Notes: generated from the sequence alone by a model not told the origin. A stretch of 64,000 bases of DNA from Solirubrobacter pauli (GCF_003633755.1 NZ_RBIL01000001.1:2279426-2343425), one strand, 5' to 3'. Shown: positions 1,535 through 50,401, counted from the first letter of the stretch. Translations and numbers: made by a program.

Positions 1535-2561
1535 TGCCGACCAGCTCCTGGATCGTGGTGGCGCCCGCCGCGCGCACGGCGCGGGCGAGCTCGGCGTTGA
1601 TGCGACGCGCCCACAGCGGCCCGCCGTAGACGAAGCCCGTGTACGCCTGGACGAGCGTCGCGCCGGCCCGCACCCGCTCGAGGACGTCGCCGGAGGTCTC
1701 GACGCCGCCGACGCTGACGAGCAGCACCTGGTCGCCCACACGCGCCCGCAGGCGCCGCAGGACCGCGAGCGAGCGGGCCTTGAGCGGGGCGCCGGAGACC
1801 CCGCCCGGCTTGGCCAGCAGCTCGGCGGGGGCGTGCAGGCCCTCGCGCGAGATCGTCGTGTTGGTGGCGATCAGCCCGTCCAGCTTCGCCTCCACGGCGA
1901 AGTCGGCGAGCTGGTCGAGCTGCTCGTCGGACAGGTCGGGTGCGAGCTTGACGAGGACGGGCTTGCCCTCCGCCTCACCGCGCACGGCGGCCAGCAGCTC
2001 GCGCAGGTGCTCGATCGTCTGCAGGTCCCGCAGGCCGGTCGTGTTGGGCGAGCTGACGTTGATGACGACGAAGTCGGCGTGCGGCGCGAGCAGCCTCGCC
2101 GAGGCGCGGTAGTCGTCGGCGGCCGCCTCGAGCGGGGCGACCTTGGACTTGCCGAGGTTGATGGCGACGATCCCGCGGCCGGACCGCGCGGCCAGCTTCG
2201 GCGCCACCGCTTCCGCACCGGGGTTGGGGAAGCCCATCGCGTTCATCAGCGCCCGGTCCTGGGCGAGCCGCCAGACGCGCGGCTTCGGGTTGCCGGGCTG
2301 GCCGATGGCGGTGATCGTCCCGACCTCGACGAACCCGAACCCGAGCGTGTTCAGGCCCTCGAACGCGGTCGCGTGCTTGTCCAGGCCCGCGGCGACGCCG
2401 AGCGGGCTGTCGAACTGCAGGCCCAAGGCGGAGACCCGCAGCGCGGGATCCAAGCGCGGACGCGGCGCCCTGGCGAGCAGCGCGAGGGCCCGCGTGGCGA
2501 GCAGGTGCGCCCGCTCGGCGTCGACACGCGAGAGGACACGGGAGTAGAGGGCGCCGTACAC
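1470..2561 (-). CDS. pyrD: Dihydroorotate dehydrogenase, class 2 (quinone)
   Basis: PyrD oxidises dihydroorotate to orotate in pyrimidine synthesis; class 2 enzymes sit on the membrane and pass electrons to quinone. The product of about 363 residues has the class 2 N-terminal helix (YSRVLSRVDAERAHLLA), the FMN-barrel start SPLGVAAGLDKHA, the active-site segment NVSSPNTTGLRDLQ with the class 2 serine, LVKLAPDLSDEQL, TNTTISREGL and the phosphate-binding VSVGGVETSGDVLERVRAGA. GTG at 2561 fits the family N-terminus; GTG at 2582 is the alternative. The gene is divergent from the transglycosylase, with only about 20 bases between starts and a shared -10 sequence. Its last 22 codons overlap the AlkZ-like gene and are probably a lineage-specific extension. 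Confidence 0.93.
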   Translation of the reverse strand: MYGALYSRVLSRVDAERAHLLATRALALLARAPRPRLDPALRVSALGLQFDSPLGVAAGLDKHATAFEGLNTLGFGFVEVGTITAIGQPGNPKPRVWRLAQDRALMNAMGFPNPGAEAVAPKLAARSGRGIVAINLGKSKVAPLEAAADDYRASARLLAPHADFVVINVSSPNTTGLRDLQTIEHLRELLAAVRGEAEGKPVLVKLAPDLSDEQLDQLADFAVEAKLDGLIATNTTISREGLHAPAELLAKPGGVSGAPLKARSLAVLRRLRARVGDQVLLVSVGGVETSGDVLERVRAGATLVQAYTGFVYGGPLWARRINAELARAVRAAGATTIQELVGSEMGVGPGVAHGAPAPDGARG

Positions 2562-2570
2562 GGTGCGGGT

Positions 2571-2577
2571 TAGCCTA
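2571..2577. promoter_or_regulatory. Shared symmetric -10 element for pyrD and the transglycosylase
   Basis: TAGCCTA reads TAGCCT on the plus strand, seven bases before GTG 2584, and TAGGCT on the minus strand, ten bases before GTG 2561. Both match TAnnnT. The spacing predicts a leaderless plus-strand mRNA and a nearly leaderless pyrD mRNA started from one stretch of melted DNA. Confidence 0.5.
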
Positions 2578-2583
2578 GTCACG

Positions 2584-3873
2584 GTGCTTCGCCTCCGCCT
2601 CGCGCTGGTCGCCGCCGTGCTCGTCGTGGCGGCCGCGCTGCTCTTCGTCGCCACCCAGGGCGGCGACGACGGCAACGTCCCGGTCATCCCGACGCCGCCG
2701 GGCGCCGAGCGCGGCGAGGCCGTGGCGGACCCGTTCGCCTGGACCGCGGAGCGCTCCGACGACCTGACCCGTCGCGCCGCCGCGGGTACGAGCCGCGTGC
2801 TCTACACCCGCTCGCCCGGCGGAGCGGCGGAGACCGCGAAGCGCGTCGCGACGTTCCGCAAGCCGGTGGAGGCGGCCGCCAAGCAGGCCGGCGTGAACCC
2901 GGACCTCCTCGAAGGCCTCGTGTTCCTCGAGAGCGCCGGACGGCCCGACGCCCGCGCCCCCGGCGGGATCGAGGGCGCCGCCGGGCTCACCCAGATCCTC
3001 GGCGAAACCGCCCAGAACCTGCTGCAGATGGACGTCGACCTCGAGCGCAGCGGCAGCTACACCCGCCGCCTGGAGCGCGCGCTGCGGGACGGCAACCTCA
3101 AGCGGGCCGCGGCGCTCAACCGCGCGCGGCGTCGTGTCGACGACCGCTTCGACCCGCCCAAGGCGCTCGCGGGCACCGCGCGCTACCTCAAGTTCGCGCT
3201 CGCGGAGCTCGGCGGCCGGGAGGACCTCGCGTTCGTCTCGTACCACATGGGCGTCGGCAACCTCAAGAACGTGCTCGAGGCGTTCGGCGGCGGCCCGCGG
3301 CCGTACGTCGAGCTCTACTTCGCCTCCTCGCCCACCCGCCACAAGCCGGCCTACGACAAGCTCGCCTCCTTCGGCGACGACTCGTCCAACTACTACTGGA
3401 AGCTCCTCGCCGCGCGGGACATCATGCGCGCCTACCGCCGGGACCCGGCCGCCGTCGCCCGCACCGCCGCCGAGCGCGCCCGCGACGAGAGCGGCCGCCA
3501 GGCGCTCCTGCGCACCGCCCCCCAGGGCGAGCCCCGAGCGGTCAAGGCGACGCCCGCGAACACCGGCCTCACCGTCCCGCCGGGCCTCGAGCTGCGCGAC
3601 GAGGCGGCCGCGGCGGCCGTCTACATCGGGGGCGAGGTCCGCGCCGTCCTCGGCCGCGGCGCCCTGAAGCTCACGAGCGCCACCGACGGCGGCTCGAGCT
3701 TCCGCATCTCCCGCGACTACGCCTCCGAGCAGCAGGCCCTGGCCTTCCAGTACGTCCTGGACCGCCTCACCGTGCTCAACGTGATCGCCTGGTCACGTTC
3801 CGAGCGCACCATCCGCGTCACCGCGGGCCGGGACGCGGAGGTGCTCAAGCCGCTGCTCGACCGGCTGGGCTGA
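2584..3873 (+). CDS. Membrane-anchored lytic transglycosylase (SLT domain)
   Basis: The 429-residue product starts with one membrane segment or uncleaved signal (LRLALVAAVLVVAAALLFVA) and is therefore exported. The segment DLLEGLVFLESAGRPDA supplies the SLT-type catalytic glutamate, followed by GAAGLTQILGETA and a second lobe with FVSYHMGVGNLKNVL, as in soluble lytic transglycosylases that cut peptidoglycan glycan strands to anhydro-muropeptides. The C-terminal 100 residues are less typical and may bind substrate. GTG 2584 was chosen because TAGCCT lies seven bases upstream and because the membrane segment follows at once; GTG 2563 would start upstream of that -10 element. The gene ends four bases before the convergent SDR gene. 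Confidence 0.82.
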   Translation: MLRLRLALVAAVLVVAAALLFVATQGGDDGNVPVIPTPPGAERGEAVADPFAWTAERSDDLTRRAAAGTSRVLYTRSPGGAAETAKRVATFRKPVEAAAKQAGVNPDLLEGLVFLESAGRPDARAPGGIEGAAGLTQILGETAQNLLQMDVDLERSGSYTRRLERALRDGNLKRAAALNRARRRVDDRFDPPKALAGTARYLKFALAELGGREDLAFVSYHMGVGNLKNVLEAFGGGPRPYVELYFASSPTRHKPAYDKLASFGDDSSNYYWKLLAARDIMRAYRRDPAAVARTAAERARDESGRQALLRTAPQGEPRAVKATPANTGLTVPPGLELRDEAAAAAVYIGGEVRAVLGRGALKLTSATDGGSSFRISRDYASEQQALAFQYVLDRLTVLNVIAWSRSERTIRVTAGRDAEVLKPLLDRLG

Positions 3874-38174: not shown

Positions 38175-38202
38175 CCATCGGCCCCTCGCAGCGCCGACTT
38201 TA
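38175..38202 (-). promoter_or_regulatory. Candidate sigma-28 promoter of the CHAP/nonulosonate operon
   Basis: TAAA (38202-38199), 16 bases, GCCGATGG (38182-38175), then nine bases to ATG 38165. It matches the flagellin promoters in this window and predicts an almost leaderless mRNA. Confidence 0.6.
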
Positions 38203-41321: not shown

Positions 41322-41349
41322 CCATCGGTTGCCCGGAAGCAGACCTTGA
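41322..41349 (-). promoter_or_regulatory. Candidate sigma-28 promoter of the glycosyltransferase pair
   Basis: TCAA (41349-41346), 16 bases, ACCGATGG (41329-41322), seven bases, GTG 41314. It differs from the flagellin promoters at one position of each element. Confidence 0.45.
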
Positions 41350-41372: not shown

Positions 41373-41402
41373 GAGCCGGCCCCCCGAGCGGGGGACCGGC
41401 TC
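41373..41402 (-). terminator. Terminator after the last flagellin
   Basis: GAGCCGG...CCGGCTC with an inner CCCCC/GGGGG stem, just downstream of the flagellin ending at 41421. The T-run after it is weak. Confidence 0.5.
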
Positions 41403-41420: not shown

Positions 41421-42278
41421 CTAGCGGAGCAGCGACAGGACGCCCTGCGGCGCCTGGTTGGCCTGCGCGAGCATGCTCGTGCCGGCCTGCTGGAGGATGT
41501 TCAGCTTCGTGAACTTCGTCATCTCCGCCGCCATGTCCACGTCGCGGATCCGCGACTCGGAGGCGGTGAGGTTCTCCTGGTAGGTCGCCAGGTTCGTCAG
41601 GCGATGCTCCAGACGGTTCTGGACGGCGCCGAAGTTGCCACGGACCTTGGAGATGTTCTCGATCATGTCGTCGAGCTGGCCGACGTCGCACATGGCGCCG
41701 GTGGCGAGCACCGCCGCCGCGTCGGACGCGACGGTCAGCGTCGACGCCGCCGTCAGGTTGTTCAGGCCGCCGGCCGAAGCCGCAGCGTTGAACGAGATGG
41801 CGGCCATCGAGATGGTCTCGCCCTGGTTCGCGCCGACCTGGAACGTGAACGAGTCGGCCGGGCCGAAGAGGCCCTTCCCGTTGAACTTGGTGTCGGTCAG
41901 GATGTTGCTGACCTCCTTGGCGATCTCGATGACCTCGGCGCCGATCGCGTTCTTGTCGTTCGCGTCCAGCGTGCCGTTGTTGATCTGAACCTTCAGGTCA
42001 CGGACACGCTGCAGCATCGAGTGCACCTCGGAGAGGGCACCTTCCGCCGTCTGGACGAGCGAGATGCCGTCCTGCGCGTTGCGCTGCGCCTGAGCGAGGC
42101 CACCGATCTGCCCGCGCATCTTCTCCGAGATGCCCAGGCCGGCAGCATCGTCCGCGGCGCGGTTGATGCGGTAGCCAGAGGAGAGCTTCTCCATGGCCTT
42201 GGAAGCCTGCGACGACGTCGCCGTCAGCTGACGGTGCGTGTTGAAGGCTTCGATGTTGTTCTGGATACGGAGGCCCAT
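41421..42278 (-). CDS. fliC: Flagellin, copy 1
   Basis: A short flagellin of 285 residues with only the D0/D1 core. N-terminal helices begin MGLRIQNNIEAFNTHRQL, with SSGYRINRAADDAAGLGI, and the C-terminus ends NILQQAGTSMLAQANQ plus GVLSLLR. The D2/D3 domains of enteric flagellins are absent. The variable stretch, residues about 155-205, has one cysteine (Cys197, AMCDVG), rare in flagellins. It has a GAGGAGAC-type leader and a fully palindromic promoter. As the last copy of the array it is followed by a separate hairpin. Confidence 0.93.
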   Translation of the reverse strand: MGLRIQNNIEAFNTHRQLTATSSQASKAMEKLSSGYRINRAADDAAGLGISEKMRGQIGGLAQAQRNAQDGISLVQTAEGALSEVHSMLQRVRDLKVQINNGTLDANDKNAIGAEVIEIAKEVSNILTDTKFNGKGLFGPADSFTFQVGANQGETISMAAISFNAAASAGGLNNLTAASTLTVASDAAAVLATGAMCDVGQLDDMIENISKVRGNFGAVQNRLEHRLTNLATYQENLTASESRIRDVDMAAEMTKFTKLNILQQAGTSMLAQANQAPQGVLSLLR

Positions 42279-42339
42279 GATCTAACGCTCCTTGTTGATC
42301 GGGTTGAAGGGCTGTACCGAGGTGACTCCATGTCTCCTC
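42279..42339 (-). promoter_or_regulatory. Two-hairpin mRNA leader, copy 1
   Basis: GAGGAGAC, ATGGA loop, GTCACCTC (42339-42319), then AAC, AAGGAGC, GTT with GATC arms around the ribosome site. Both loops present AnGGA. Confidence 0.6.
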
Positions 42340-42347
42340 AAGCACGA

Positions 42348-42374
42348 AGATCGGCCCCGAGGGGCCGATCTTTA
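42348..42374 (-). promoter_or_regulatory. Palindromic sigma-28 promoter/terminator, copy 1
   Basis: TAAA (42374-42371), 15 bases, GCCGATCT (42355-42348). The spacer begins GATCGGCCCC and the element pairs with itself over about 11 bases each side, so it can also form a hairpin in the upstream transcript. Confidence 0.72.
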
Positions 42375-42397
42375 GCGAGCGGTGGTCAGCCCGGCGA

Positions 42398-43246
42398 CTA
42401 GCGCAGGAGGCTCAGGACGCCCTGCGGGGCCTGGTTGGCCTGGGCCAGCATCGAGGTGCCGGCCTGCTGCAGGATGTTGAGCTTCGTGAACTTGGTCATC
42501 TCGGCGGCCATGTCCACGTCACGGATCCGCGACTCGGACGCCGTCAGGTTCTCCTGGTAGGTGGCCAGGTTCGTCAGACGGTGCTCCAGACGGTTCTGGA
42601 CCGCGCCGTAGCTGCCGCGCAGCTTGGACACGTTCTCGATCGCGGTGTCGATGTCGGAGATCACCGACAGGTCGCCGGTCGACAGCGCCGCGGCGACGTC
42701 GCTGACCTGGCACGCGGCCAGGGCGATCGTCGTCGAGAGGCCACCGGCGGTCGCCGCGCCGCTGAGCACGGTCGACGCCATCGTGATCGTCTCGCCCTGG
42801 TTGGCGCCGACCTGGAACGAGAAGCTGTTCCCGAACACGGCGGTGCCGTTGAACTTCGTGTCGGTCGAGATCGACTTGACTTCCTTGGTGATCTCGAGGA
42901 CCTCGGCGGCGATGGCCGTCTTGTCGTTCGCGTCGAGGGTGCCGTTGTTGTACTGCACCTTCAGGTCACGGACGCGCTCGAGCATCGAGTGGACCTCGGC
43001 CAGCGCGCCTTCCGCGGTCTGGACGAGCGAGATGCCGTCCTGCGCGTTGCGCTGGGCCTGGGCGAGACCGCCGATCTGCCCGCGCATCTTCTCGGAGATG
43101 CCGAGGCCGGCGGCGTCGTCGGCCGCGCGGTTGATGCGGTAGCCGCTGGAGAGCTTCTCCATGGCCTTGGAAGCCTGCGACGACGTCGCCGTCAGCTGAC
43201 GGTGCGTGTTGAAGGCTTCGATGTTGTTCTGAATGCGAAGGCCCAT
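42398..43246 (-). CDS. fliC: Flagellin, copy 2
   Basis: 282 residues. It differs from copy 1 mainly at residues 115-200: LEITKEVKSISTDTKFNGTAVFGN, then STVLSGAATAGGLSTTIALAAC with a single cysteine at 179 and DIDTAIENVSKLRG. The length is the second shortest of the array. The true start is ATG 43246; an upstream in-frame extension reaches only non-coding leader. Its leader carries AAGGA in the first loop. Ribosome site is TCAACA, AGGAG, TGTTGA. Confidence 0.93.
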   Translation of the reverse strand: MGLRIQNNIEAFNTHRQLTATSSQASKAMEKLSSGYRINRAADDAAGLGISEKMRGQIGGLAQAQRNAQDGISLVQTAEGALAEVHSMLERVRDLKVQYNNGTLDANDKTAIAAEVLEITKEVKSISTDTKFNGTAVFGNSFSFQVGANQGETITMASTVLSGAATAGGLSTTIALAACQVSDVAAALSTGDLSVISDIDTAIENVSKLRGSYGAVQNRLEHRLTNLATYQENLTASESRIRDVDMAAEMTKFTKLNILQQAGTSMLAQANQAPQGVLSLLR

Positions 43247-43302
43247 GGTCAACACTCCTTGTTGATCGGGGGGAGGGCATCTGGCGGCGACTCCTTGTCG
43301 CC
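43247..43302 (-). promoter_or_regulatory. Two-hairpin mRNA leader, copy 2
   Basis: GGCGAC, AAGGA, GTCGCC (43302-43286), followed by TCAACA, AGGAG, TGTTGA. The loop base N of AnGGA is A here. Confidence 0.6.
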
Positions 43303-43312
43303 TTAACCGCAA

Positions 43313-43339
43313 AGATCGGCCACGAAGGGCCGATCTTTA
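43313..43339 (-). promoter_or_regulatory. Palindromic sigma-28 promoter/terminator, copy 2
   Basis: TAAA (43339-43336), 15 bases, GCCGATCT (43320-43313). The inner part of the stem (CCCTTCGTGG) has one mismatch; the GATCGGCC/GGCCGATC arms are intact. Confidence 0.7.
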
Positions 43340-43361
43340 GCGAACTGCTTCGGGTGCTGAC

Positions 43362-44216
43362 TTAGCGGAGCAGCGACAGGACGCCCTGCGGCGCCTGGTT
43401 GGCCTGCGCGAGCATGCTCGTGCCGGCCTGCTGGAGGATGTTCAACTTCGTGAACTTCGTCATCTCCGCCGCCATGTCCACGTCACGGATCCGCGACTCG
43501 GACGCCGTCAGGTTCTCCTGGTAGGTCGCCAGGTTCGTCAGACGGTGCTCCAGACGGTTCTGGACCGCGCCGTACTGGCCGCGGACCTTCGAGACGTTCT
43601 CGATCATCTGGTCGACGCTCGAGATCACCGACAGGTCGCCGCTGCACAGCGCCGTCGCCACGGCCGAAGCCGCGGACACGCCGACCGCCGTGAGGTTCGA
43701 CAGACCGCCGGCGGTCTTGTCACCGCTCAGCGTCGTCGCGGCCAGGGCGATCGTCTCGCCCTGGTTGGCGCCGACCTGGAACGTGAACGAGTCGGACGTG
43801 CCGAACACGCTCTTGCCGTTGAACTTGGTGTCGCTCAGGATGTTGCTGACTTCCTTGGCGATCTCCACGACCTCGGCGCCGATGGCGTTCTTGTCGTTGT
43901 CGTCGAGCGTGCCGTTGTTGATCTGGACCTTGAGGTCACGAACGCGCTCGAGCATCGAGTGCACCTCACCGAGGGCACCTTCCGCCGTCTGGACGAGCGA
44001 GATGCCGTCCTGCGCGTTGCGCTGCGCCTGGGCCAGGCCGCCGATCTGGCCGCGCATCTTCTCCGAGATGCCCAGGCCGGCGGCGTCGTCCGCGGCGCGG
44101 TTGATGCGGTAGCCGCTGGAGAGCTTCTCCATGGCCTTCGAGGCCTGCGACGACGTCGCCGTCAGCTGACGGTGCGTGTTGAAGGCTTCGATGTTGTTCT
44201 GAATGCGAAGGCCCAT
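43362..44216 (-). CDS. fliC: Flagellin, copy 3
   Basis: 284 residues. Central segment: GKSVFGTSDSFTFQ, LAATTLSGDKTAGGLSNLTAVGVS, SAVATALCSGDLSVISSVDQMIENVSKVRGQYG. Cys191 is five residues nearer the N-terminus than the cysteine of copies 1, 4 and 9, so it arose separately or was shifted by exchange. Shares the GAGGAGAC leader type with copy 1 although copy 2 lies between them. Confidence 0.93.
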   Translation of the reverse strand: MGLRIQNNIEAFNTHRQLTATSSQASKAMEKLSSGYRINRAADDAAGLGISEKMRGQIGGLAQAQRNAQDGISLVQTAEGALGEVHSMLERVRDLKVQINNGTLDDNDKNAIGAEVVEIAKEVSNILSDTKFNGKSVFGTSDSFTFQVGANQGETIALAATTLSGDKTAGGLSNLTAVGVSAASAVATALCSGDLSVISSVDQMIENVSKVRGQYGAVQNRLEHRLTNLATYQENLTASESRIRDVDMAAEMTKFTKLNILQQAGTSMLAQANQAPQGVLSLLR

Positions 44217-44281
44217 GATCGAACGCTCCTTGTCTGATCGGGTTGCAGAAGGGCTTTGCCGAGGTGACTCCGTGTCTCCTC
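44217..44281 (-). promoter_or_regulatory. Two-hairpin mRNA leader, copy 3
   Basis: GAGGAGAC, ACGGA, GTCACCTC (44281-44261); N of AnGGA is C. The ribosome-site hairpin is weak here (AGAC before AAGGAGC). Confidence 0.55.
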
Positions 44282-44289
44282 AAGCCAAA

Positions 44290-44316
44290 AGATCGGCCCC
44301 GAGGGGCCGATCTTTA
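44290..44316 (-). promoter_or_regulatory. Palindromic sigma-28 promoter/terminator, copy 3
   Basis: TAAA (44316-44313), 15 bases, GCCGATCT (44297-44290), followed by TTTTGG. The A and T flanks extend the symmetry, making this the best terminator of the set. Confidence 0.75.
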
Positions 44317-44346
44317 GCGACGCGGGTTCGAGCTCTCGGCTGCGGC

Positions 44347-45207
44347 TTAGCGCAGGAGGCTCAGGACGCCCTGGGGCGCCTGGTTGGCCTGCGCGAGCAT
44401 GCTCGTGCCGGCCTGCTGCAGGATGTTCAACTTCGTGAACTTCGTCATCTCCGCCGCCATGTCCACATCGCGGATCCGCGACTCGGAGGCGGTGAGGTTC
44501 TCCTGGTACGTGGCCAGGTTCGTCAGGCGATGCTCCAGACGGTTCTGGACCGCGCCGAGCTGGCCGCGGACCTTCGACACGTTCTCGATCATGTCGTCGA
44601 TGCGGTCGATGTCGCACAGCGCGCCACCGATGAGCGCGGACGCCGCGACCGAGGCCGTGGCGGCCGACGACTGCGCCGTCAGGTCGGTGAGCCCACCGGC
44701 GCCGGACGACAGCGAGCCCAGCGACGTCGCCGTCATCGAGATCGTCTCGCCCTGGTTGGCGCCCACCTGGAAGGTGAAGTTGTTGGTGCCGTTCAGCAGC
44801 GCCTTGCCGTTGAACTTGGTGTCGCTGAGGATGTTGCTGACTTCCTTGGCGATCTCCACGACCTCGGCGCCGATGGCGTTCTGATCGTTGGTGTCGAGCG
44901 TGCCGTTGTTGATCTGGACCTTCAGATCACGCACGCGCTGCAGCATCGAGTGCACCTCGGAGAGGGCACCTTCCGCCGTCTGGACCAGGGAGATCGCGTC
45001 CTGCGCGTTGCGCTGGGACTGCGCCAGACCACCGATCTGACCGCGCATCTTCTCGGAGATGCCGAGGCCGGCGGCGTCGTCGGCGGCACGGTTGATGCGG
45101 TAGCCGCTGGAGAGCTTCTCCATCGCCTTCGAGGCCATCGACGACGTCGCCGTCAGCTGACGGTGCGTGTTGAACGCCTCGATGTTGTTCTGAATGCGAA
45201 GGCCCAT
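44347..45207 (-). CDS. fliC: Flagellin, copy 4
   Basis: 286 residues, the longest copy. The central part reads GKALLNGTNNFTFQ, TSLGSLSSGAGGLTDLTAQSS, ASALIGGALCDIDRIDDMIENVSKVRGQLG. Cys198 sits at the same place as in copies 1 and 9. The N-terminal helix has ATSSMASKAM instead of SQASKAM, shared with copy 5. It carries QSQRNAQDAISL where other copies have AQRNAQDGISL. Confidence 0.93.
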   Translation of the reverse strand: MGLRIQNNIEAFNTHRQLTATSSMASKAMEKLSSGYRINRAADDAAGLGISEKMRGQIGGLAQSQRNAQDAISLVQTAEGALSEVHSMLQRVRDLKVQINNGTLDTNDQNAIGAEVVEIAKEVSNILSDTKFNGKALLNGTNNFTFQVGANQGETISMTATSLGSLSSGAGGLTDLTAQSSAATASVAASALIGGALCDIDRIDDMIENVSKVRGQLGAVQNRLEHRLTNLATYQENLTASESRIRDVDMAAEMTKFTKLNILQQAGTSMLAQANQAPQGVLSLLR

Positions 45208-45267
45208 GATTCAACACTCCTTGTTGATCGGGGGTGTGGGCAATGTCCGGGCGACTCCATGTCGCCC
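45208..45267 (-). promoter_or_regulatory. Two-hairpin mRNA leader, copy 4
   Basis: GGGCGAC, ATGGA, GTCGCCC (45267-45249), then CAACA, AGGAG, TGTTG with flanking GAT/ATC. This is the commonest form of the leader. Confidence 0.65.
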
Positions 45268-45277
45268 TTAACCGCAA

Positions 45278-45304
45278 AGATCGGCCCCGAGGGACCGATC
45301 TTTA
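45278..45304 (-). promoter_or_regulatory. Palindromic sigma-28 promoter/terminator, copy 4
   Basis: TAAA (45304-45301), 15 bases, GCCGATCT (45285-45278). The spacer base T in GATCGGTCCC keeps pairing as a G-U wobble in RNA. Confidence 0.72.
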
Positions 45305-45332
45305 GCGACTACGTCGGATTCGGCTGAGCCGG

Positions 45333-46190
45333 CTAGCGCAGGAGGCTGAGGACGCCCTGCGGGGCCTGGTTGGCCTGCGCGAGCATGCTCGTGCCGGCCT
45401 GCTGGAGGATGTTCAGCTTCGTGAACTTCGTCATCTCCGCCGCCATGTCCACGTCACGGATCCGCGACTCGGACGCCGTCAGGTTCTCCTGGTAGGTCGC
45501 CAGGTTCGTCAGACGGTGCTCCAGGCGGTTCTGCACGGCGCCGTAGACGCCACGCTGCTTGGAGACGTTCTCGATCATGTCGTCGATCATGTCGAGGTCG
45601 GACAGCCCGTTGCCGATCAGGGCGGAAGCCGCAGCGGAAGCCGTCGCGGCCGCCGACAGGCTGGTGAGCTGCGAGAGGCCGCCGCCCGCCGCGTTGGCGC
45701 TGAGCGGCGTCGCCGCGATCGAGATGGTCTCGCCCTGGTTGGCGCCGACCTGGAACGTGAACGAGTTGTCGCCGTCCAGCAGCGTCTTGCCGTTGAACTT
45801 GGTGTCGCTGAGGATGCTGCTGACCTCCTTGGCGATCTCGATGACCTCGGCGCCGATGGCGTTCTGGTCGTTGGTGTCGAGCGTGCCGTTGTTGATCTGG
45901 ACCTTCAGATCACGGACGCGCTGCAGCATCGAGTGCACCTCGGCCAGCGCGCCTTCCGCGGTCTGGACGAGCGAGATGCCGTCCTGCGCGTTGCGCTGGG
46001 CCTGGGCGAGACCGCCGATCTGCCCGCGCATCTTCTCGGAGATGCCGAGGCCGGCGGCATCGTCAGCGGCGCGGTTGATGCGGTAGCCGCTGGAGAGCTT
46101 CTCCATGGCCTTCGAAGCCATCGACGACGTCGCCGTCAGCTGACGGTGCGTGTTGAAGGCTTCGATGTTGTTCTGAATGCGAAGGCCCAT
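45333..46190 (-). CDS. fliC: Flagellin, copy 5
   Basis: 285 residues without cysteine. The variable part is GKTLLDGDNSFTFQ, IAATPLSANAAGGGLSQLTSLSAAATASAAASALIG in pieces, then NGLSDLDMIDDMIENVSKQRGVYG. The N-terminal SSMASKAM variant matches copy 4, suggesting recent exchange of the 5' third. Aligned to copy 4, Ser replaces the cysteine (GLSDLD against ALCDID). Confidence 0.93.
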   Translation of the reverse strand: MGLRIQNNIEAFNTHRQLTATSSMASKAMEKLSSGYRINRAADDAAGLGISEKMRGQIGGLAQAQRNAQDGISLVQTAEGALAEVHSMLQRVRDLKVQINNGTLDTNDQNAIGAEVIEIAKEVSSILSDTKFNGKTLLDGDNSFTFQVGANQGETISIAATPLSANAAGGGLSQLTSLSAAATASAAASALIGNGLSDLDMIDDMIENVSKQRGVYGAVQNRLEHRLTNLATYQENLTASESRIRDVDMAAEMTKFTKLNILQQAGTSMLAQANQAPQGVLSLLR

Positions 46191-46250
46191 GATTCAACAC
46201 TCCTTGTTGATCGGGGGAAGGGCGGACGTGCGGGCGACTCCATGTCGCCC
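46191..46250 (-). promoter_or_regulatory. Two-hairpin mRNA leader, copy 5
   Basis: GGGCGAC, ATGGA, GTCGCCC (46250-46232); CAACA, AGGAG, TGTTG at the ribosome site. Confidence 0.65.
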
Positions 46251-46261
46251 CTTAAACGCAA

Positions 46262-46288
46262 AGATCGGCCCCGAAGAGCCGATCTTTA
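46262..46288 (-). promoter_or_regulatory. Palindromic sigma-28 promoter/terminator, copy 5
   Basis: TAAA (46288-46285), 15 bases, GCCGATCT (46269-46262). Spacer GATCGGCTCT opposite GGGG keeps wobble pairs, so the RNA hairpin survives base changes. Confidence 0.72.
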
Positions 46289-46309
46289 GCGAGCGGTGGT
46301 GAGCGGTGA

Positions 46310-47152
46310 CTAGCGCAGGAGGCTCAGGACGCCCTGGGGCGCCTGGTTGGCCTGCGCGAGCATGCTCGTGCCGGCCTGCTGGAGGATGTTCAACTTCGTG
46401 AACTTGGTCATCTCCGCCGCCATGTCCACGTCACGGATCCGCGACTCGGACGCCGTCAGGTTCTCCTGGTACGTGGCCAGGTTCGTCAGACGGTGCTCCA
46501 GACGGTTCTGCACGGCGCCGTAGCTGCCGCGCAGCTTGGAGACGTTCTCGATCATCGTGTCGATCGTCGAGATCGCGGTCAGCGTGCCGGCCGCGGCGCT
46601 CAGCGCGTTGGTGGTGTCGCTGACGACGCTGACGGCGAGGCCCGTCAGGTCGGAGACGACGCCGAAGGACGCCGCGCCCATGGAGATCGTCTCGCCCTGG
46701 TTCGCGCCGACCTGGAACGAGAACGTATCGCTCGAGGTGAACAGCGTCTTGCCGTTGAACTTGGTGTCGTCGAAGATGTCCTTGACCTCCTTGGCGATCT
46801 CGAACACCTCCGCGCTGATGGCCTTCTTGTCGTTGTCGTCAAGCGTGCCGTTGTTGAACTGCACCTTCAGGTCACGGACGCGCTCGAGCATCGAGTGAAC
46901 CTCGGCCAGCGCGCCTTCCGCCGTCTGGACGAGCGAGACGCCGTCCTGCGCGTTGCGCTGCGCCTGAGCCAGACCACCGATCTGACCGCGCATCTTCTCG
47001 GAGATGCCCAGACCCGCCGCGTCATCGGCCGCGCGGTTGATCCGGTAGCCGCTGGAGAGCTTCTCCATCGACTTGGAAGCCTGCGTCGACGTCGCCGTCA
47101 GCTGACGGTGCGTGTTGAAGGCTTCGATGTTGTTCTGAATGCGAAGGCCCAT
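46310..47152 (-). CDS. fliC: Flagellin, copy 6
   Basis: 280 residues, the shortest copy, no cysteine. N-terminal differences: TATSTQASKSMEK, where other copies have SSQASKAMEK. Central: GKTLFTSSDTFSFQ, GAASFGVVSDLTGLAVSVVSD, AAAGTLTAISTIDTMIENVSKLRG. FEIAKEVKDIFDDTKF is shared in type with copy 7. Promoter is the TCAA type. Confidence 0.93.
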   Translation of the reverse strand: MGLRIQNNIEAFNTHRQLTATSTQASKSMEKLSSGYRINRAADDAAGLGISEKMRGQIGGLAQAQRNAQDGVSLVQTAEGALAEVHSMLERVRDLKVQFNNGTLDDNDKKAISAEVFEIAKEVKDIFDDTKFNGKTLFTSSDTFSFQVGANQGETISMGAASFGVVSDLTGLAVSVVSDTTNALSAAAGTLTAISTIDTMIENVSKLRGSYGAVQNRLEHRLTNLATYQENLTASESRIRDVDMAAEMTKFTKLNILQQAGTSMLAQANQAPQGVLSLLR

Positions 47153-47212
47153 GATTCAACGCTCCTTGTTGATCGGGGGTGTGGGCAATGTCCGGGCGAC
47201 TCCTTGTCGCCC
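47153..47212 (-). promoter_or_regulatory. Two-hairpin mRNA leader, copy 6
   Basis: GGGCGAC, AAGGA, GTCGCCC (47212-47194); CAAC, AAGGAGC, GTTG around the ribosome site. Confidence 0.63.
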
Positions 47213-47222
47213 TTAAACGCCA

Positions 47223-47249
47223 AGATCGGCCGCGACGGACCGATCTTGA
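47223..47249 (-). promoter_or_regulatory. Palindromic sigma-28 promoter/terminator, copy 6
   Basis: TCAA (47249-47246), 15 bases, GCCGATCT (47230-47223). Arms GATCGG/CCGATC and CCG/CGG are kept around a one-base bulge. Confidence 0.68.
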
Positions 47250-47277
47250 GCGACCACCTTCAAAATGGCTGAGCGAT

Positions 47278-48135
47278 CTAGCGCAGGAGGCTCAGGACGC
47301 CCTGCGGGGCCTGGTTGGCCTGGGCCAGCATCGACGTGCCGGCCTGCTGCAGGATGTTCAGCTTCGTGAACTTGGTCATCTCCGCCGCCATGTCCACATC
47401 GCGGATCCGCGACTCAGAGGCGGTGAGGTTCTCCTGGTAGGTCGCCAGGTTCGTCAGGCGATGCTCCAGACGGTTCTGGACCGCGCCGAGGCTGCCGCGG
47501 ACCTTGGAGACGTTCTCGATCATCTTGTCGATGTCGGAGACCACGGACATGTTGTTCGTGGCGAGGGCCGAGACGGCGTCGCTGACGAGCTTGTTCGTGG
47601 CGAGCTGCGTCAGGTTCGAGAGGCCGCCGACGCTCGAGTCGCCGGCCAGCGAGATCGCGTCGAGCGTGATCTTCTCGCCCTGGTTGGCACCGACCTGGAA
47701 GTCGAACGAGCTCGAGGCGCTGAAGAGCGTCTTGCCGTTGAACTTCGTGTCGTCGAGGATGTCCTGGACCTCCTTGGCGATCTCGAGGACCTCGGCGCCG
47801 ATGGCCGTCTTGTCGTTCGTGTCCAGCGTGCCGTTGTTGAACTGCACCTTCAGGTCACGGACGCGAGCGAGCATCGAGTGCACCTCGGAGAGGGCCCCTT
47901 CCGCGGTCTGGACGAGCGAGATGCCGTCCTGCGCGTTGCGCTGCGCCTGGGCGAGGCCGCCGATCTGGCCACGCATCTTCTCGGAGATGCCCAGGCCCGC
48001 CGCGTCGTCGGCGGCACGGTTGATGCGGTAGCCGCTGGAGAGCTTCTCCATCGCCTTCGAGGCCTGCGACGACGTCGCCGTCAGCTGGCGATGCGTGTTG
48101 AACGCCTCGATGTTGTTCTGAATGCGAAGGCCCAT
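47278..48135 (-). CDS. fliC: Flagellin, copy 7
   Basis: 285 residues, no cysteine. The middle reads GKTLFSASSSFDFQ, LDAISLAGDSSVGGLSNLTQLATNKLVSDAVSAL in pieces, then ATNNMSVVSDIDKMIENVSKVRGSLG. It keeps the canonical core ends and has MLARVRDLKVQFNNG near residue 90. VGANQGEKITL differs from the VGANQGETI of all the others. Confidence 0.93.
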   Translation of the reverse strand: MGLRIQNNIEAFNTHRQLTATSSQASKAMEKLSSGYRINRAADDAAGLGISEKMRGQIGGLAQAQRNAQDGISLVQTAEGALSEVHSMLARVRDLKVQFNNGTLDTNDKTAIGAEVLEIAKEVQDILDDTKFNGKTLFSASSSFDFQVGANQGEKITLDAISLAGDSSVGGLSNLTQLATNKLVSDAVSALATNNMSVVSDIDKMIENVSKVRGSLGAVQNRLEHRLTNLATYQENLTASESRIRDVDMAAEMTKFTKLNILQQAGTSMLAQANQAPQGVLSLLR

Positions 48136-48191
48136 GATTCAACACTCCTTGTTGATCGGGGGAAGGCCGGACGGGCGACTCCATGTCGCCC
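48136..48191 (-). promoter_or_regulatory. Two-hairpin mRNA leader, copy 7
   Basis: GGGCGAC, ATGGA, GTCGCCC (48191-48173); CAACA, AGGAG, TGTTG at the ribosome site. Confidence 0.63.
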
Positions 48192-48201
48192 TTAACCGCA
48201 G

Positions 48202-48228
48202 AGATCGGCCCCGGAGGGCCGACCTTGA
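48202..48228 (-). promoter_or_regulatory. Palindromic sigma-28 promoter/terminator, copy 7
   Basis: TCAA (48228-48225), 15 bases, GCCGATCT (48209-48202); stem GGTCGGCCC against GGGCCGATC, one G-U pair. Confidence 0.66.
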
Positions 48229-48263
48229 GGTACCGCGTGAATTCGGGGGCGAAGCCCTGAGCT

Positions 48264-49118
48264 TTAGCCCTTCAGCAGCGAGAGGACGCCCTGCGGCGCC
48301 TGGTTGGCCTGCGCCAGCATCGACGTGCCGGCCTGCTGCAGGATGTTCAGCTTCGTGAACTTGGTCATCTCCTGCGCCATGTCCACGTCGCGGATGCGCG
48401 ACTCCGACGCCGTCAGGTTCTCCTGGTAGGTCGCCAGGTTCGTCAGACGGTGCTCGAGCCGGTTCTGGACCGCGCCGAGCTGTCCACGGATCTTGGAGAC
48501 GTTCTCGATCGCCTTGTCCAGGTTGCCGAGGTCGGAGAGGCCACCCGAGGACAGCGCCGCGACGGTGGCCGACACGGCGCTGGCCGCGAGGCTGGTGAGG
48601 TCGGAGAGACCGCCGGCGGCGATGCCGCCGCTGAGGCCGACCGGGGAGACCGAGACGGTCTCGCCCTGGTTCGCGCCCACCTGGAAGACGAAGCCGGTGG
48701 CACCGAACAGCGCCTGGCCGTTGAACTTCGTCTCGCTGATGATCGACGAGACCTCCTTGGAGATCTCGAGGACCTCGGCGGCGATGGCCTCCTGGCCGCC
48801 GGTGTCGAGCGTGCCGTTGTTGAACTGGACCTTCAGGTCACGGACGCGCTCGAGCATCGAGTGGACCTCGGCGAGCGAGCCTTCCGCGGTCTGGACGAGC
48901 GAGATGCCGTCCTGCGCGTTGCGCTGCGCCTGAGCCAGACCACTGATCTGGCCGCGCATCTTCTCCGAGATGCCCAGGCCGGCGGCGTCGTCGGCAGCGC
49001 GGTTGATGCGATAGCCGGAGGAGAGCTTCTCCATCGCCTTCGAGGCCTGCATCGACGTCGCCGAAAGCTGGCGATGCGTGTTGAAGGCTTCGATGTTGTT
49101 CTGGATGCGCAGGCCCAT
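48264..49118 (-). CDS. fliC: Flagellin, copy 8 (divergent)
   Basis: 284 residues. It is the most divergent copy: N-terminal RQLSATSMQASKAM, GQISGLAQAQ, DVDMAQEMTKF instead of AAEMTKF, and a C-terminus ending LLKG instead of LLR. Middle: TGGQEAIAAEVLEISKEVSSIISETKFNGQ in pieces, GATGFVFQVGANQGETVSV, GLSGGIAAGGLSDLTSL, GLSDLGNLDKAIENVSK. No cysteine. Promoter spacing is 16 and not palindromic. It may be a minor filament or cap-proximal subunit. Confidence 0.93.
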   Translation of the reverse strand: MGLRIQNNIEAFNTHRQLSATSMQASKAMEKLSSGYRINRAADDAAGLGISEKMRGQISGLAQAQRNAQDGISLVQTAEGSLAEVHSMLERVRDLKVQFNNGTLDTGGQEAIAAEVLEISKEVSSIISETKFNGQALFGATGFVFQVGANQGETVSVSPVGLSGGIAAGGLSDLTSLAASAVSATVAALSSGGLSDLGNLDKAIENVSKIRGQLGAVQNRLEHRLTNLATYQENLTASESRIRDVDMAQEMTKFTKLNILQQAGTSMLAQANQAPQGVLSLLKG

Positions 49119-49164
49119 GGCCGGGGATACTCCTTGTGAGGAACTGGACGACTCCGTGTCGTCC
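49119..49164 (-). promoter_or_regulatory. Two-hairpin mRNA leader, copy 8
   Basis: GGACGAC, ACGGA, GTCGTCC (49164-49146): the stem differs from the other copies at paired positions and still closes. The ribosome site is CACAAGGAGTATCC without a clear second stem. Confidence 0.6.
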
Positions 49165-49180
49165 CGGACGGATACGACGT

Positions 49181-49208
49181 CTGTCGGCCGCCTCGCAAGG
49201 GAGCTTTA
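49181..49208 (-). promoter_or_regulatory. Non-palindromic sigma-28 promoter, copy 8
   Basis: TAAA (49208-49205), 16 bases, GCCGACAG (49188-49181). The spacer does not mirror the -10. A separate terminator lies upstream at 49237-49272. Confidence 0.6.
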
Positions 49209-49236
49209 GCCTGCGTGAGATTTGGGGGAACGCGGT

Positions 49237-49272
49237 CCGGCCCCCTGGTCCGCGTGCGAACCAGAGGGCCGG
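49237..49272 (-). terminator. Terminator after flagellin copy 9
   Basis: CCGGCCC with ACCAG/CTGGT-type stem on both sides of a ten-base loop, downstream of the flagellin ending at 49285. Confidence 0.6.
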
Positions 49273-49284
49273 GAGAAGCGCGAT

Positions 49285-50139
49285 CTAGCGCAGGAGGCTG
49301 AGGACGCCCTGCGGAGCCTGGTTGGCCTGGGCCAGCATCGAGGTGCCGGCCTGCTGCAGGATGTTCAACTTCGTGAACTTGGTCATCTCCGCCGCCATGT
49401 CCACATCGCGGATCCGCGACTCGGAGGCGGTGAGGTTCTCCTGGTACGTGGCCAGGTTCGTCAGGCGATGCTCCAGGCGGTTCTGGATCGCGCCGTACGC
49501 GCCACGCTGCTTGGAGACGTTCTCGATCATGTCGTCGATGCGATCGATGTCGCAGAGGCTGCCCGACGAGAGCGCGGTGGCCGCGGCGGTGGCCGTGGAC
49601 GCCGAGAGGCTGGTCAGGTTGGCGAGGCTGTCGGAGACGACGGCACCGTCGAGGGTAGCCGCGGCCACGTCGATCGTCTCGCCCTGGTTGGCGCCGACCT
49701 GGAACTTGAACGTGTCGCCCGTGCCGAACACGGTCTTGCCGTTGAACTTGGTGTCGTTCAGGATGCTGCGGACTTCCTTGGCGATCTCCACGACCTCGGC
49801 GCCGATGGCCTCGCGGTCGTTGGTGTCCATCGTGCCGTTGTTGGCCTGGACCTTGAGATCGCGCACGCGCTGCAGCATCGAGTGCACCTCACCGAGGGCA
49901 CCTTCCGCCGTCTGGACGAGCGAGATGCCGTCCTGCGCGTTGCGCTGCGCCTGAGCCAGACCACCGATCTGCCCACGCATCTTCTCCGAGATGCCCAGGC
50001 CGGCGGCATCGTCAGCGGCGCGGTTGATGCGGTAGCCGGAGGAGAGCTTCTCCATGGCCTTCGAGGCCAGCGACGACGTCGCCGTCAGCTGACGGTGCGT
50101 GTTGAACGCCTCGATGTTGTTCTGAATGCGAAGGCCCAT
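49285..50139 (-). CDS. fliC: Flagellin, copy 9
   Basis: 284 residues, upstream end of the array. ATG 50139 is preferred to the upstream in-frame ATG at 50148 because the conserved MGLRIQNN start and ribosome site follow it. Middle: DTNDREAIGAEVVEIAKEVRSI, GKTVFGTGDTFKFQ, VAAATLDGAVVSDSLANLTSL, SSGSLCDIDRIDDMIENVSKQRGAYG; Cys196 matches copies 1 and 4. Uses a promoter located inside the preceding small gene. Confidence 0.92.
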   Translation of the reverse strand: MGLRIQNNIEAFNTHRQLTATSSLASKAMEKLSSGYRINRAADDAAGLGISEKMRGQIGGLAQAQRNAQDGISLVQTAEGALGEVHSMLQRVRDLKVQANNGTMDTNDREAIGAEVVEIAKEVRSILNDTKFNGKTVFGTGDTFKFQVGANQGETIDVAAATLDGAVVSDSLANLTSLSASTATAAATALSSGSLCDIDRIDDMIENVSKQRGAYGAIQNRLEHRLTNLATYQENLTASESRIRDVDMAAEMTKFTKLNILQQAGTSMLAQANQAPQGVLSLLR

Positions 50140-50197: not shown

Positions 50198-50401
50198 CTA
50201 AGCCGAGTAATCGACTCCGCGACCCGAACCTTGAGGGGGCGTCTTCGGCACGGCGCGGCGCTTCTGCTCGCGCTTCTCCTCCCGCCGGCGCCGCGCTTCC
50301 TCGCGCTCGACCGGCGTCAGCAGCCGCGGGCGTTCGACGCGGTCCACGCGCGGCGTGCCGGTCTCGCCCGGCTCGATCCGGTAGATCGGCGGGTTCTCCA
50401 T
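50198..50401 (-). CDS. Small basic/acidic hypothetical protein before the flagellin array
   Basis: A 67-residue product with ENPPIYRIEPGETGTP and a strongly charged helix REEARRRREEKREQKRR, then a short tail ending VDYSA. No recognised family. ATG 50401 shares one base with the stop of the upstream gene (TGATG). Its 3' part contains the copy-9 flagellin promoter, so the two are physically interlocked. Confidence 0.6.
   Translation of the reverse strand: MENPPIYRIEPGETGTPRVDRVERPRLLTPVEREEARRRREEKREQKRRAVPKTPPQGSGRGVDYSA
50208..50234 (-). promoter_or_regulatory. Sigma-28 promoter of flagellin copy 9, inside a gene
   Basis: TCAA (50234-50231), 15 bases, GTCGATTA (50215-50208). It is not palindromic and lies in the coding 3' end of the 67-codon gene. 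Confidence 0.55.

Follow-up and report, generated by a model that had tools for sequence, protein, structure and literature searches.

The window, a stretch of 64,000 nucleotides from Solirubrobacter pauli (NZ_RBIL01000001.1:2279426-2343425), contains nine flagellin genes arranged head to tail on the minus strand (41421-50139), and the subject of this work is a short palindromic element with the layout of a sigma-28 promoter that lies at seven of the flagellin junctions. The first flagellin in transcription order is copy 9. The copies share 77-86% protein identity with copy 1 and are the only matches to the flagellin profile in this genome of 7.1 Mb, whose nearest relatives are S. phytolaccae, S. 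deserti, S. taibaiensis and S. soli. At the seven junctions the pattern TMAA-N15-GCCGATCT (M, A or C) forms 27-base elements in which the first bases of the spacer mirror the -10; they are referred to here as fused elements, the -10 being at the same time the 3' arm of a predicted hairpin in the upstream transcript. An earlier reading of the sequence alone had proposed seven near-perfect inverted repeats of this kind, and all seven were found where it had placed them.

Within the window, TMAA-N15-GCCGAT is matched 7 times against 0.06 expected, a number that none of 100 shuffles reached, and the form with a mirrored spacer occurs 7 times in the whole genome, always within the array (the genome-wide counts given in this work are pattern searches). 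All six bases of the -10 core are paired in each of the window hairpins, with predicted energies of -16.6 to -20.4 kcal/mol, and the -35 is partly included in the stem, the pairing running into its AA(A) in several copies. When only the spacer was shuffled, the observed energy was matched in 9 of 27,000 trials over 18 elements. Symmetry of this type could also make the element a bidirectional sigma-28 promoter that fires an antisense RNA as well, since the mirror of the -10 places GCCGAT on the reverse strand too, and symmetric promoters firing both ways are known in Escherichia coli (PMC12825309). This possibility was rejected as highly improbable: a reverse -35 TMAA at spacers of 14-16 bases is absent from all 18 elements, and TMAA-N15-GCCGAT has no match on the plus strand of the window.

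The promoters of copies 8 and 9 are not palindromic (Table 1). The sequence-only reading had described copy 8 as having a plain promoter together with a terminator of its own, and copy 9 as following an unrelated gene; both descriptions hold, the copy 9 promoter overlapping the end of the preceding gene. At the other end of the array, a sigma-28-like site, TCAA-N16-ACCGATGG (41322-41349, minus strand), is found directly past the closing hairpin and near the start of a glycosyltransferase-family gene; S. phytolaccae has a similar site.

Table 1. Flagellin genes, promoters and predicted hairpins of the array
Feature	Position	Strand	Remarks
Fused element before copy 1	42348..42374	-	-35 TAAA, N15, -10 GCCGATCT; predicted hairpin of copy 2 transcript; 6/6 of -10 paired, -20.2 kcal/mol
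Fused element before copy 2	43313..43339	-	-17.1 kcal/mol; C-U mismatch at innermost pair
Fused element before copy 3	44290..44316	-	-20.4 kcal/mol; TTTT after
Fused element before copy 4	45278..45304	-	-17.7 kcal/mol; one U-G pair
Fused element before copy 5	46262..46288	-	-17.4 kcal/mol; one U-G pair
Fused element before copy 6	47223..47249	-	-16.6 kcal/mol
Fused element before copy 7	48202..48228	-	-18.7 kcal/mol; one G-U pair
Copy 8 promoter, sigma-28-type, ordinary and non-palindromic, TAAA-N16-GCCGACAG	49181..49208	-	2/6 of -10 paired
Separate terminator-like hairpin after copy 9, before copy 8 promoter	49239..49270	-	14 base pairs, -29 kcal/mol; no U-tract
Copy 9 promoter, sigma-28-type, ordinary and non-palindromic, TCAA-N15-GTCGATTA, overlapping last codons of preceding gene	50208..50234	-	
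Hairpin after copy 1, at array end, outside any promoter	41373..41402	-	-35 kcal/mol; counterpart in S. phytolaccae
Flagellin copy 1	41421..42278	-	
Flagellin copy 2	42398..43246	-	
Flagellin copy 3	43362..44216	-	
Flagellin copy 4	44347..45207	-	
Flagellin copy 5	45333..46190	-	
Flagellin copy 6	46310..47152	-	
Flagellin copy 7	47278..48135	-	
Flagellin copy 8	48264..49118	-	
Flagellin copy 9	49285..50139	-	

Promoter signals at the junctions

That the fused elements are promoters is well supported: they keep a constant distance to the start codon, sites of the same kind precede further flagellar and chemotaxis genes, and the genome encodes a FliA. The elements display the sigma-28 layout, with a TAAA-like -35 and a CCGAT-like -10 separated by 14-16 bases, and are located 68-75 bases (core end to ATG) before the flagellin start, a distance that is alike in the unfused copies 8 and 9 (64 and 70 bases). 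At the genome level, TMAA-N14-16-GCCGAT is found at 105 sites, and the reversed pattern, used as a control, at 8. In the neighbourhood of the array, sites of this type stand before FliS-, FlgB-, flagellar rod- and FliI-like genes (products named from sequence) as well as a CHAP-domain gene, and one site elsewhere in the genome precedes a gene for a methyl-accepting chemotaxis protein (MCP). Two genes of the FliA/WhiG sigma family score above the curated cut-off, one of them inside the flagellar region. On the basis of these sites and these sigma genes, it is likely that sigma-28 drives the promoters. The two sigma genes lie at G000:C2:2063512-2064192 and G000:C1:2360019-2360696, and the better score belongs to the one far from the flagellar region.

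The resemblance to the sigma-28 (FliA/SigD) flagellin promoters comprises the TAAA-N15-GCCGAT layout and the FliA-family gene in the flagellar region. In that class, however, the -10 usually ends in CA or GA, whereas the fused -10 of Solirubrobacter ends in CT. To our knowledge, known sigma-28 promoters have not been described as hairpin arms.

RNA pairing and separate hairpins

The stem of the fused elements has been conserved in a manner characteristic of RNA. Over the 9 stem pairs of 18 elements, 151 Watson-Crick pairs, 8 G-U, 0 A-C and 3 other combinations are found, the three mismatches all lying at the innermost pair. An A-C would be equally reachable by transition in the non-promoter arm, and only the type of change that pairs in the sense transcript is observed, in agreement with the earlier claim that base changes in the arms stay G-U. 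The changes fall at four different stem pairs, which implies at least four events and not necessarily eight. Two stem pairs are changed on both sides, and the covariation score is above that of all 500 shuffles, an excess that relatedness alone can yield. Window copy 7 carries a G-U at pair 4, and its S. phytolaccae ortholog shows a U-G at pair 9 instead. Thus, when relatives were inspected for independent variation of the arms, the changes turned out to keep the sense-RNA pairing, and the eight G-U, the lack of A-C and the two compensated pairs point to selection acting on the pairing of the sense RNA.

These counts also bear on the idea of a dimeric DNA-binding regulator whose operator, the inverted repeat, would overlap the promoter. 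Arms of 9-11 base pairs (bp) around a 4-base centre are indeed a common operator shape. Nevertheless, departures from symmetry that keep RNA pairing, always G-U and never A-C, break the symmetry of the DNA, the repeat is lacking, within the same regulon, at the promoters of array-first genes and of copy 8, and most other flagellar promoters are without such a palindrome, which makes an operator very unlikely.

Within the fused elements, the -35 (T[A/C]AA) and GCCGA are invariant, in contrast to the variable loop and 5' arm. At position 8, the final base of the -10, 15 of 17 fused elements have T. Elsewhere this base is usually A, with T in one of the 29 other flagellin promoters of the class. 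The T of the fused elements lengthens the stem into the -35 or begins the U-tail. The palindrome was also considered as a by-product of an extended -35, an idea that was discarded because the overlap with other promoters stops at the G of TMAAG, GNTCGG being present in 1 of 93 and 2 of 29 other sites.

The connection between the palindrome and the need for a terminator, first noticed in the window, extends to a survey of 22 tandem flagellin junctions from four Solirubrobacter species and, in addition, to one orthologous pair. In this survey, S. deserti and Solirubrobacter sp. CPCC 204708 (L155 and L156), whose array junctions are identical, were counted once. Seventeen of the 22 junctions are fused, and 16 of these 17 have no other strong hairpin between the stop codon and the -35, whereas the five unfused junctions all have a separate hairpin of -36 to -44 kcal/mol. 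The corresponding Fisher test (fused state against lack of a separate hairpin, p = 2.3e-4) is not corrected for shared ancestry and is overstated, since the junctions of window copy 8, S. phytolaccae 3 and probably S. deserti 2 and S. taibaiensis 2 represent one ancestral junction. The intergenic length follows the same division, with mostly 110-140 bases at fused junctions, 160-214 at those with a separate hairpin and 151 at the one that has both. None of the six array-first or single promoters with a same-strand upstream neighbour is fused.

An orthologous pair appears to be the most telling single case for a palindrome that serves termination. Window copy 6 (WIN4 in transcription order) and S. 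phytolaccae copy 4 group together, with a support of 0.99, in a variable-domain tree. The junction of the former is fused, and that of the latter is unfused and has a separate upstream hairpin (AAGGCCGGCCCCTCGGGGCCGGCCTTTG). In the alignable sequence, the S. phytolaccae promoter has kept the AAGATCG start and a GCCGAC -10, and its decayed palindrome reaches -7.9 kcal/mol (z = 0.09), against -23.5 kcal/mol (z = -5.4) for a fused element. Loss of the palindrome beside a second terminator, with the promoter kept, is the pattern expected if the palindrome serves termination.

Evidence bearing on termination

The hairpins of the fused elements are GC-rich, with stems of 9-13 bp and energies of -16.5 to -22.9 kcal/mol, and lie 19-56 nucleotides past the stop codon. 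In comparison with the corresponding positions of unfused promoters, the tails that follow them are richer in T (p = 6e-5). Among the separate hairpins and those closing the arrays in this genus, T-tails are no better than, or poorer than, those of the fused elements, and terminators in this genus may therefore not depend on long U-runs. A search against Rfam gave no matching family above the gathering score. Transcription probably terminates at the fused hairpins. Of the dual role that the sequence-only reading had attributed to the element, the promoter part is borne out by position, by the related sites and by FliA; the termination part is argued from sequence, the U-tract being too weak for a generic scan.

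A hairpin at this position could alternatively be a 3' stabiliser or a processing site of a long polycistronic flagellin mRNA and not a terminator. Hairpins at 3' ends also protect mRNA, and the modest U-tract would suit such a role. This explanation is nonetheless unlikely considering that each gene has its own promoter at a constant distance and that unfused junctions carry a different and stronger hairpin. A mixed terminator and stabiliser role would also be compatible with these points.

Several observations weigh against termination at the fused elements. After the stems there are 3-6 T in 8 bases (for instance TTTGCGGTT, TTTTGGCTT and TTTTTGTGTG), and a generic terminator scan with a 5-of-8 T rule calls none of these sites. 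In S. deserti copy 5, a separate hairpin and a fused element occur together. The array copies are related and possibly homogenised, leaving few independent events, and the G in TMAAG is derived from the promoter. Furthermore, palindromic sigma-28 promoters are present beside divergent genes, where no terminator is needed: those of the S. soli flagellin, which lacks a T-tail, of the CHAP gene in the window and of an MCP gene on contig 2. A palindrome alone is consequently no proof of termination. These three promoters fit chance, sites fully paired at -9 kcal/mol or better amounting to 3 of the 93 listed non-array sites (about 3%). The CHAP site (38177-38202, minus strand) is situated directly before the CHAP-domain gene, in the short gap to a divergent nucleotide-sugar dehydratase-like gene.

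Such cases lend some weight to the view that the element is a promoter only, in which an ancestral promoter that was palindromic by chance spread by duplication and gene conversion and the hairpin is functionless. The rate of chance palindromes at other sigma-28-like sites, the S. soli promoter without a same-strand neighbour, the paralogy of the copies and the species-wise clustering of the S. deserti and S. taibaiensis genes, suggestive of homogenisation, are all in line with this view. It is, however, improbable, given that the sequences vary in four species and pairing is still kept with 8 G-U and 0 A-C, that the palindrome decays beside a separate hairpin, and that it is absent from all array-first promoters.

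The best explanation, and in our judgement a rather probable one, is that each element is a fused terminator-promoter in which the -10 is the 3' arm of the terminator of the upstream gene. It joins the promoter motif with its position and conservation, and the hairpin with its RNA-type constraint and its link to the absence of another hairpin. In the upstream transcript, 22-27 bases would form a GC-rich hairpin with a T-rich tail behind it and end that transcript. As double-stranded DNA, the same bases would work as the sigma-28 promoter TMAA-N15/16-GCCGATCT, from which transcription of the next flagellin would start about 60-75 bases ahead of the start codon. The -10 would form the 3' arm of the hairpin and the beginning of the spacer the 5' arm, so that the end of one transcript and the start of the next would be only a few bases apart. 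An evolutionary advantage may exist as well: each flagellin would be a compact, self-contained cassette that keeps both signals as the array grows or shrinks by recombination.

It can also be envisaged that the two functions are coupled in a relay, with the polymerase halted at the hairpin staying over the next promoter, taking sigma-28 and restarting, and the traffic of the first flagellin thereby feeding the later ones. It has been demonstrated that polymerase stays on DNA after intrinsic termination and can restart at nearby promoters (PMC6978380, PMC6978322). Those results come from single-molecule experiments in which the templates were different ones and the terminators lay apart from the promoters; a relay in Solirubrobacter is regarded as quite unlikely.

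Distribution, known parallels and implications

A search of related genomes, suggested along with the sequence-only reading, revealed that fused elements between flagellin genes recur in Solirubrobacter species. The strict pattern, applied to 399 genomes of the class, gave a multi-copy array in Solirubrobacter only, with six single hits elsewhere. A loose family-wide pattern was tried and set aside, its matches being mostly single and chance-like. Among 60 flagellin promoters from other genera, none combines a -10 paired throughout with -9 kcal/mol or better, and several tandem arrays of related genera have separate hairpins and separate promoters within longer junctions. The element therefore seems to have arisen at the level of the genus, possibly from a chance-palindromic promoter that turned useful on tandem gene duplication. 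One array from another genus of the family (L163, genome G040, about 2376-3354) contains two flagellin junctions of 90-92 bases with a hairpin; by eye, these two junctions show no sigma-28 site, and their copies may be transcribed by read-through starting at the first promoter.

Other hairpins are found in the flagellin leaders. Every leader (for example, 48173-48191) has a hairpin GGCGAC-ANGGA-GTCGCC or a close variant, with GGA in the loop, and most copies have a second, weak hairpin around the ribosome-binding site (CAACAAGGAGTGTTG). The GGA-loop hairpin is also present in many related genera, with compensated stems. The genes fliW and csrA are adjacent to each other 24 kb beyond the window (G000:C1:2367036-2367613). 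Taken with these two genes, the leader hairpins look like CsrA-FliW-flagellin control, each of the nine flagellin genes having about two sites; such control is known from Bacillus and Campylobacter (PMC4894983).

A literature search limited to open papers yielded no account of one hairpin serving as promoter and terminator along an array, nor of such an overlap in flagellin arrays. The closest natural parallel discussed here is the ampC/frd pair of E. coli, where the ampC attenuator is the terminator of the frd operon and the ampC promoter lies in the last frd gene (PMC6045580, PMC11838884). In both systems, the terminator of the upstream unit overlaps the promoter region of the downstream gene. 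The ampC hairpin, however, is downstream of its promoter and attenuates ampC, whereas in Solirubrobacter the -10 is itself a hairpin arm and the element is repeated along the array. Since the Solirubrobacter hairpin reaches no further than the -10, ahead of any expected start, it would be absent from the downstream mRNA, and attenuation of the downstream gene in the manner of ampC/frd is not expected. In Saccharomyces cerevisiae, synthetic terminator-promoter bifunctional elements have been built, in which one short element ends one gene and starts another (PMC10298055). These are engineered, use RNA polymerase II signals (TATA and efficiency element) and have no hairpin, in contrast to the natural, bacterial and hairpin-based element of Solirubrobacter.

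If the fused terminator-promoter explanation is true, the same 27 bases carry two transcription signals of opposite effect, the one acting as RNA and the other as DNA. The double constraint would then be visible in the change from A to T at position 8 of the -10, in the restriction of G-U changes to the non-promoter arm and in the decay of the palindrome once a second terminator is present. The element would constitute a natural promoter-terminator made of a single hairpin, a compact part for gene arrays, and would offer a clean site at which to test the on-the-spot restart of a polymerase that has just terminated.

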